From Bacteroidia bacterium (GTDB lineage Bacteria; Bacteroidota; Bacteroidia; Bacteroidales; F082), in NCBI GenBank assembly GCA_021287165.1, contig JAJTAY010000013.1:1-64000 (forward strand): DNA of 64,000 bases. The letters run 5' to 3'. Below, piece by piece: positions 29,304 through 31,785 of the stretch. How positions within the stretch are numbered: position 1 is the stretch's first letter; each line of letters starts with the position of its first letter. The position numbers and the translations under genes were made by a program. The notes beneath the pieces are model-generated. The model was not told where the DNA came from. It did not search any database and worked only from the letters and a program-made list of their open reading frames with translations.

Positions 29304-30002
29304 CTACCTGGTGTAGGGAATCAGATTGGATTCGACGAGCTCCCAATTATCGATTACCTGAGGTGTGCTTCGGGGTCGGTGGAGCTGATACCTGACAATG
29401 CCGTAGTTTTTGGCAATCCAGAAATCAAAAAATGCGGTATCAGGAGCGTTTTGATAATCAATCACTTTAGTGTGATAAACATCGGAATAGTTCCTTCCCT
29501 GAATCGTAAGTGATGGTATCTTCTCTACGGTTGTGTAATTGCCTTCATTTATTCCCAGCAACTGTTCTTCTCCGAAATTGAGGTTGGTGATCAGTGCCCT
29601 GTAATACCTGCCATTATTGAAATAGAGCCGGAAATTGTCGCTGGCGGAGTTATTGCCATATACTTTCCCAACCGTTAGCTCGTATTTGGTAAGACCTGTG
29701 AAACGAGCGCTTAAAACAGACTCAATTGCCTGATAGTAAAAGCCTTTCGGATTCAGGACATCAGAATGAAAACGCTTGTCTTTAAAGGTGCGCAACACCC
29801 TCACGGTATCCCGGTTTGAATTAGGATCGCCGGTTGTTGTCTTGAGGTAGATCCAGAATGAAAGCGAGTCGAAGGCGGTGTATTGCCTGAATTCCTGATC
29901 GATCTCGTAAACTTCTGGTGGCCTCAGGTCATCCACCTTGCATGAATGCATGAAAAAGCCCCCAAAAATTGCAACGAGGGCAGCGATGAAAATTTGTTTC
30001 AT
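29304..30002 (-). CDS. Hypothetical lipoprotein
   Basis: 232 residues. Lipoprotein signal with FMHSC (Cys21). No known domain is recognised. The body is rich in aromatic residues and beta pattern (FRLYFNNGRYYRALITNLNFG; AFFDFWIAKNYGIVRYQL), suggesting a compact beta-fold. Its ATG overlaps the stop of the deformylase-like gene (ATGA), so the two are translated together. A shared role in the periplasm is possible but not shown. Confidence 0.75.
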   Translation of the reverse strand: MKQIFIAALVAIFGGFFMHSCKVDDLRPPEVYEIDQEFRQYTAFDSLSFWIYLKTTTGDPNSNRDTVRVLRTFKDKRFHSDVLNPKGFYYQAIESVLSARFTGLTKYELTVGKVYGNNSASDNFRLYFNNGRYYRALITNLNFGEEQLLGINEGNYTTVEKIPSLTIQGRNYSDVYHTKVIDYQNAPDTAFFDFWIAKNYGIVRYQLHRPRSTPQVIDNWELVESNLIPYTR

Positions 30003-30586
30003 TTTCCGGAAAATATTTTGTCGGTAAACAGTACTCCGTTCAGATGGTCGATCTCGTGTTGAAAAATCCTTGCCGTAAAACCTTCAACGTATTCTTCGCG
30101 CCATACTCCTGTTTGGTCCTGATATTTCAGTTGGATTCCCCAGGGGCGCTCAACCATATCGCGCATTCCCGGAATGGAAAGACAACCTTCGGCACGCAGG
30201 TGCAATGAATCGGAATACGCGGTAATCTGTGGATTGAAATACACCTCAAAAGGCTTTTCGTCTTTGTCAAAGCGCTGAACAACTATGAGTTGCCGATTGA
30301 TGCCAACCTGAGGTGCAGCAATACCAACGCCTTTGTGATCAGGATGTTGCACGGTGGCAATCATGCGACGGCTTAGCAGCTCCCACATCCTGTGCTCCGG
30401 TTTATCTACTTTAGCAGAAACTGCGCGAAGCACCAGCAAGTCGTCGGGGTTGGTAACGAGGGTCACGCGCATTTTTTCGTCAGGCTTTCCACCGGCGATC
30501 AGCTTTCGCTCGCTGCGGGCCGGTGGCTGGGCAGAAATTATAGCTGCCCCCATCATCAGAATCAAAAGGAAAGCCAGGCGCTTCAT
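29999..30586 (-). CDS. Peptide-deformylase family protein with a signal peptide
   Basis: 195 residues. All three deformylase motifs are present: GVGIAAPQVG (86-95), EGCLSIP with metal ligand Cys135, and QHEIDHLNG with the metal-binding His177/His181 and catalytic Glu178. Family enzymes remove the formyl group from nascent proteins in the cytoplasm. Here residues 1-19 (MKRLAFLLILMMGAAIISAQ) form a clear signal peptide with an AQ cleavage pattern, so the enzyme should be exported. It is probably not the housekeeping Def. No fmt gene is adjacent; an uncharacterised lipoprotein gene overlaps by 4 nt. Substrate unknown. Confidence 0.88.
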   Translation of the reverse strand: MKRLAFLLILMMGAAIISAQPPARSERKLIAGGKPDEKMRVTLVTNPDDLLVLRAVSAKVDKPEHRMWELLSRRMIATVQHPDHKGVGIAAPQVGINRQLIVVQRFDKDEKPFEVYFNPQITAYSDSLHLRAEGCLSIPGMRDMVERPWGIQLKYQDQTGVWREEYVEGFTARIFQHEIDHLNGVLFTDKIFSGK

Positions 30587-30708: not shown

Positions 30709-31785
30709 ATGCCAGCCAACACTTTCGGAGAAGTTTTCCGGCTTACCACCTTCGGCGAATCGCACGGCCCGGCCATAGGCGGGATAATTGATGGCTGTCC
30801 TCCTGGAATTCATATCGATAATGAATTTATTATCAGTATGATGCGTCGAAGACGTCCCGGACAGTCGCATTTATCCACCCCCCGAAATGAGGAAGATATA
30901 CCGGAGATTCTGTCCGGCGTGTTCGAAGGTGTGACAACAGGAACACCGCTTGCCTTCGTTATTCGCAATAGCGACCAACGTTCGGGCGACTATGATAAAC
31001 TCAAAGACGTGTACCGGCCTTCCCATGCCGATTTTACCTACGAAGCCAAATATGGCTTGCGCGACCATCGTGGCGGAGGTCGTTCTTCGGCCCGCGAAAC
31101 GGCTGCGCGGGTTTTTGCCGGCGCTATCGCAATGTTATTCCTACAGCGTTTTGGGATAAATATCAGGGCCTGGGTGAGCGCGGTAGGCACAGTGGAGGCT
31201 CCCGAACTCAACGAAATCCCTTCGCTCGAAATGGTGGAATCGAATGCAGTGCGATGTCCTCATCCCGCGTCGGCAGAATTAATGCAGCAAATCATCCTCG
31301 AATCAGGCAAGGCAGGCGACACTCTGGGCGGCATTATTAGCGCCGGCATCAGTGGCTTACCCGCCGGACTTGGGGCTCCTGTTTTCGATAAATTTCATGC
31401 CGAGCTCGGTAAAGCCATGCTCAGTATCAATGCCGTCAAGGGCTTCGAGTATGGCAGCGGTTTTGCCGGTACCCGATTGCCGGGCTCACAGCACAACGAC
31501 CGCTTCGCCACCGAAAATGGTAAGATTGTAACTACTACCAATCACTCCGGCGGTATACAAGGAGGCATTACCAATGGCATGGAAGTGCGCTTTCGGTTAG
31601 CTTTCAAGCCGGTTGCAACCCTCATGCAGCAGCAAAAAACCATCACCTCAAAAGGCGAAGAGGCTACGCTCAGTCCAGGCGGACGTCACGACGTATGCGT
31701 TTTACCCCGTGCCGTAGTCATCGTTGAAGCCATGGCGGCCCTCGTTTGTACAGATCATTTCCTCCGTCAAAAAATGTATCAATAG
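30709..31785 (+). CDS. aroC: Chorismate synthase
   Basis: 358 residues. Last step of the shikimate pathway: EPSP to chorismate with reduced FMN. Family signatures: GESHGPAIGGIIDGCPPG near residue 16, the HRGGGRSSARETAARVFAG segment near 115 and RHDVCVLPRAVVIVEAMAA near 330. Full length. The AsmA-type gene begins 16 nt after the stop. Confidence 0.98.
   Translation: MPANTFGEVFRLTTFGESHGPAIGGIIDGCPPGIHIDNEFIISMMRRRRPGQSHLSTPRNEEDIPEILSGVFEGVTTGTPLAFVIRNSDQRSGDYDKLKDVYRPSHADFTYEAKYGLRDHRGGGRSSARETAARVFAGAIAMLFLQRFGINIRAWVSAVGTVEAPELNEIPSLEMVESNAVRCPHPASAELMQQIILESGKAGDTLGGIISAGISGLPAGLGAPVFDKFHAELGKAMLSINAVKGFEYGSGFAGTRLPGSQHNDRFATENGKIVTTTNHSGGIQGGITNGMEVRFRLAFKPVATLMQQQKTITSKGEEATLSPGGRHDVCVLPRAVVIVEAMAALVCTDHFLRQKMYQ

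Follow-up and report, generated by a model that had tools for sequence, protein, structure and literature searches.

Peptide deformylase (PDF) has been described as an enzyme of the cytosol with a link to the ribosome. In PMC12690207 the C-terminal helix of the E. coli PDF is stated to bind uL22 and 23S rRNA, and the title of a reference cited there calls the Vp16 PDF the smallest PDF. A conserved clade of exported PDFs would put formyl-methionine processing in the cell envelope too. No report of an exported PDF was found in the open-access literature searched.

Genetic organisation of the locus

The window, i.e. the whole 64,000-nt stretch of DNA that was analysed, contains the gene for a PDF with an export signal (P0001) and, downstream of it on the same strand, the gene for a lipoprotein (P0002). 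The two ORFs overlap by 4 nt, and both the coordinates and the lipobox agree with the original prediction of an overlapping lipoprotein gene. The features of the locus are shown in Table 1.

Table 1. Features of the P0001-P0002 locus in the window
Feature	Position	Strand	Basis
Predicted exported peptide deformylase (PDF) P0001, 195 aa	29999-30586	-	ORF, PF01327, TIGR00079 and predicted fold
Predicted Sec signal peptide, residues 1-19, MKRLAFLLILMMGAAIISA	30530-30586	-	Putative cut before Q20; N-termini of the clade are hydrophobic
PDF motif 1, GVGIAAPQ, residues 86-93	30308-30331	-	Alignments
PDF motif 2, EGCLS, residues 133-137, metal ligand Cys135	30176-30190	-	Alignments
PDF motif 3, HEIDH, residues 177-181	30044-30058	-	Alignments; metal ligands His177 and His181, catalytic Glu178
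Lipoprotein P0002, 232 aa	29304-30002	-	Predicted YmcC/LolA-like beta fold; synteny
Lipobox of P0002, MHSC, residues 18-21	29940-29951	-	Cys21 invariant in 13 rows
aroC (chorismate synthase)	30709-31785	+	Divergent, marks the conserved slot; identified by sequence inspection

P0001 matched PF01327 with an E-value of 6e-41 (140.1 bits, cut-off 22.8) and the NCBIfam equivalog TIGR00079 with 123.5 bits (cut-off 103.95). Its AlphaFold2 model had a pLDDT of 95 and matched 1lme in a Foldseek comparison with solved PDFs (E-value 5.4e-16, TMt 0.88). Alignments showed that GVGIAAPQ, EGCLS and HEIDH are all intact, by which a pseudogene is ruled out for the window locus. The intact motifs bear out the original claim that the deformylase motifs are complete, and both family models and the fold are those of a PDF. 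Only 11 residues follow HEIDHLNG in P0001, and the C-terminal ribosome-binding helix was not found there.

A clade of PDFs with export signals

The exported PDFs shared a single branch (SH-aLRT 96) in a tree of 135 sequences, apart from the housekeeping PDFs; the tree was a quick build with SH-aLRT supports and no bootstrap, drawn by midpoint. At least 92 relatives among the matches listed belong to this branch, a lower bound obtained from the relatives together with a scan of named genomes. Among these matches nearly all were from Bacteroidota and one was from Myxococcota; the carriers included Chryseobacterium, Epilithonimonas, Sphingobacterium, Parapedobacter, Algibacter, Tamlana, Reichenbachiella, Dysgonomonas, Rikenellaceae and many Bacteroidales MAGs from gut or rumen. 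The clade is a large, intact and apparently undescribed family of exported PDFs across Bacteroidota.

An exported PDF was present in 14 of the 99 genomes of the order sample (by inspection of the matches) and in 7 of the 296 genomes of the phylum sample, a patchy distribution that argues against an essential role. The phage and plasmid collections searched contained no match to P0001 at 60% identity or more, so an origin from either is not backed.

Two single records deserve mention. L143:7884-8567, from a record filed under Myxococcota, encodes an exported PDF of the lipoprotein type; within the exported part of the drawn tree it branches off first, and on inspection its neighbour genes look unlike those of Bacteroidota. 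A sequence from Chloroflexota (L148), labelled as exported by our script, grouped with the housekeeping rows and was rejected as an artefact of start choice.

The N-terminus of P0001 (MKRLAFLLILMMGAAIISA followed by QPP) reads on inspection as a Sec-type (type I) signal. By the heuristics of a simple script, which is not a trained predictor, 91 of the 92 clade members listed carry an N-terminal export signal. A lipobox was scored in about 64 of the 92, and in 27 others the N-terminus is hydrophobic with no lipobox scored, mostly of Sec type I. An Ala/Ser/Gly-Gln junction was counted by eye in 25 of these 27, and one of the 27 (L004) has a lipobox further in. The clear signal peptide claimed for P0001 is therefore supported by its sequence and by the recurrence of export signals through the clade. 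The bacterial family to which the window belongs includes both signal types (L049 and L054), which indicates that the clade retains export as such and not the anchor. The signal for surface export, K-(D/E)2 or Q-A-(D/E)2 (PMC5080379), was clearly present just after the Cys in two clade members only (L006 and L009), so surface exposure cannot be claimed clade-wide.

It could be argued that the hydrophobic N-terminus is no export signal, or that an internal start is used, which would make the enzyme another PDF of the cytosol, as L087, the only one of the 92 listed members with neither signal type, might suggest. Met39 is the earliest internal Met in the conserved region of P0001. Ile30, which lies between the signal and Met39, is invariant in an alignment of 43 relatives, and the region around it is conserved, so a start at Met39 cannot account for the apparent signal. 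With two different signal types recurring across the clade, a positive N-terminus ahead of the hydrophobic run and no ribosome-binding tail, a cytosolic location is most unlikely.

Sequence features and constraint

Motif 1 starts near residue 85-100 in most unfused exported members, versus about residue 42 in housekeeping rows, and the roughly 40 extra N-terminal residues include conserved positions. In alignments RFDKxxxPFEVxxNP, a signature of the exported clade, lies between motifs 1 and 2. Most tails after HExxDHxxG measure 5-35 aa, versus mostly 35-46 aa in housekeeping rows, and the RK-LLKxKL helix of the housekeeping tails of Bacteroidota is absent from them. Fewer non-ligand Cys residues, an expected sign of an oxidising compartment, were not seen in the exported cores (mean 0.64, versus 0.33).

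Motifs 1 and 3 were intact in all 92 listed members, and the ligand in motif 2 was Cys in 81 and Asp (EGDLS) in 11. The latter (L102, L105, L106, L112, L117, L118, L122, L127, L134, L135 and L136) are all Weeksellaceae, namely Chryseobacterium, Epilithonimonas and a single MAG; further cases with an Asp ligand are L158 and L160-L163. The Asp members, whose metal or activity may be different, are a natural experiment on what the metal ligand does in PDF.

For the ten pairs in which dS could be counted, dN/dS values of 0.04-0.16 were obtained (0.04-0.09 in countable pairs of Asp-ligand members); dS was saturated in three further pairs, which were uninformative. The exported clade is thus under purifying selection in the countable pairs, and with these values it is unlikely to consist of pseudogenes. 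Apparent decay was seen at L057 (G114:C15), where an exported PDF with broken motifs lies beside an intact lipoprotein gene.

Other PDFs in the carrier genomes

The source genome was found to hold a second def gene, signal-less and 190 aa long (L001, G000:C14:46164-46631), adjoining a gene that reads on inspection as ruvX. The check proposed with the original prediction, a search for such a gene, was therefore positive, and P0001 is not the sole def of its genome. At least one further PDF match was present in 27 of the 29 genomes with an exported PDF. In the two exceptions (G033 and G026, 95-97% complete) the exported PDF was found and no housekeeping def; both assemblies are fragmented and the gene may have been missed. 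The combination that had been proposed, an exported PDF with intact motifs beside a housekeeping def, proved to be a conserved property of the whole clade.

Fusions and gene neighbourhoods

Several members carry additional domains. In L080:7890-10202 and L081 an exported lipoprotein PDF is followed by an M14 carboxypeptidase domain. These two near-identical MAGs are the sole source of the fusion, which is a thin pointer toward extracellular peptide turnover. In Sphingobacterium faecium (L085:7356-8603) DUF1684 is fused ahead of the exported PDF. L116 has a PD40-like stretch, below the Pfam cut-off, ahead of the PDF, and L121 a flavin reductase domain after it, perhaps two genes read through. 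L012:1498-2655(-) encodes a tandem of two PDF domains, in the first of which the motifs are degenerate.

The varied fused domains (DUF1684, PD40-like, flavin reductase), together with the separate clade, its conserved extra N-terminal region and signature and the Asp-ligand subclade, would suit a new amidase: an enzyme that kept PDF chemistry for a different envelope substrate, N-formyl or N-acyl, such as a secreted metabolite, a modified component of the cell wall or of a glycan, or a leaderless formylated bacteriocin. We regard this as unlikely, given that motifs and fold are those of PDF, that the score exceeds the TIGR00079 equivalog cut-off and that no co-occurring biosynthetic gene set was seen in the neighbourhoods compared.

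No conserved operon partner across lineages was identified among the neighbourhoods compared. In the Flavobacteriaceae records L094, L103, L109, L111, L119, L123 and L129, genes named by inspection as mreC, mreD, mrdA and rodA precede the exported PDF on the same strand.

The conserved neighbours included no resistance genes or mobile elements, which speaks against a role of the envelope PDF as a decoy or tolerance factor that catches actinonin and other hydroxamate PDF inhibitors ahead of the cytosolic enzyme. The catalytic Glu and Gln are also conserved, though a sponge need not keep them. Accessory PDFs can reduce susceptibility to actinonin, according to PMC12690207, and many carriers among the matches listed come, by their record titles, from crowded gut or soil communities; even so, we give a decoy little chance.

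The downstream lipoprotein

The lipobox Cys21 of P0002 was invariant in an alignment of 13 rows. The P0002 model (pLDDT 87) gave Z-scores of 10.5 with 3fzx (BF2203) and 10.0 with 4fvs (BDI_3050), at 10-12% identity, and lower scores with LolA, RseB and YmcC entries. The best Foldseek E-value was 3e-3, with none at 0.001, and there was no Pfam match. The fold of P0002 is plausibly YmcC/LolA-like, which is not proof of kinship; to call the fold unknown, as had been done, was an overstatement.

A homologue of P0002 directly follows the exported PDF in 10 of 10 testable loci of the window's bacterial family, and to this extent the proposed coupling of the two genes, and the conservation of the pair, hold. 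As a general statement the coupling claims too much, since the pair is lineage-specific: exported PDFs outside this family had no P0002-like neighbour, and in L039, L042, L043 and L044 a P0002 homologue lies next to divergent aroC without a PDF. With the lipoprotein beside aroC in either case, it is the presence of the PDF that varies in a fixed aroC-lipoprotein slot. The adjacency on one strand in all ten loci and the 4-nt overlap in the window could also point to a dedicated two-component system, in which a LolA/YmcC-like lipoprotein presents the substrate to the PDF. Since the lipoprotein keeps its place on the aroC side without the PDF in those four loci, and other exported PDFs do without such a neighbour, this is very unlikely.

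Proposed function

Nascent chains that carry a signal are kept from deformylation by bound SRP, and it has been proposed that N-out membrane proteins stay formylated (PMC5454389), so formylated N-termini are to be expected in the envelope. The original prediction held that formyl-methionine proteins are not made outside the cytoplasm; formylated N-termini do get out (PMC5454389), which makes a substrate plausible.

We consider it probable, with modest confidence, that P0001 is a metal-dependent PDF that is exported by Sec and deformylates fMet N-termini in the envelope. Sec would export the PDF to the cell envelope, where members of the clade would be either cleaved free or lipid-anchored. The enzyme would take up its metal outside and then remove the formyl group from fMet N-termini of the envelope. 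Its substrates might come from the cell itself, as N-out membrane proteins and signal-peptide fragments missed by the cytosolic PDF, or might be peptides that originate in other cells and are digested by the bacterium. With the formyl group gone, aminopeptidases could complete the degradation.

More tentatively, Bacteroidota may possess a second, extracytoplasmic deformylation, by an envelope PDF, lipid-anchored or soluble, that acts on membrane-protein N-termini or released peptides and that has, in Chryseobacterium and relatives, a His2Asp site that is perhaps oxidation-resistant. Such an activity would matter for the fate of signal peptides and of formylated N-termini of membrane proteins, for PDF inhibitors, and for the pool of formyl peptides that host receptors sense, which gut Bacteroidota might shape.

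Comparison with known systems

The YmcC/LolA-like lipoproteins 3fzx and 4fvs, the latter titled putative lipoprotein, have their fold in common with that predicted for P0002, at 10-12% identity and with no common function known.

Phage PDFs (cyanophage S-SSM7, Vp16) resemble the exported PDFs in their short C-terminus, and the S-SSM7 PDF is also a fold match to P0001. No member of the exported clade was identified among the phage matches listed, all of which were below 60% identity.

The accessory PDFs, i.e. V. cholerae Def2 and the integron PDFs, are likewise extra copies beside a canonical PDF, as described in PMC12690207. Def2 differs in that it sustains growth when Def1 is missing and has been linked to tolerance of actinonin (same source). 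Text searches of that paper gave no hit for exported PDFs or Bacteroidota.

With the housekeeping def (PF01327, TIGR00079) the exported PDF has the three motifs, the metal-ligand set, the fold and the core length in common. It differs from it by the signal peptide or lipobox, by some 40 extra N-terminal residues and by having no ribosome-binding C-terminal helix, and it forms a separate clade that is accessory to the normal def.
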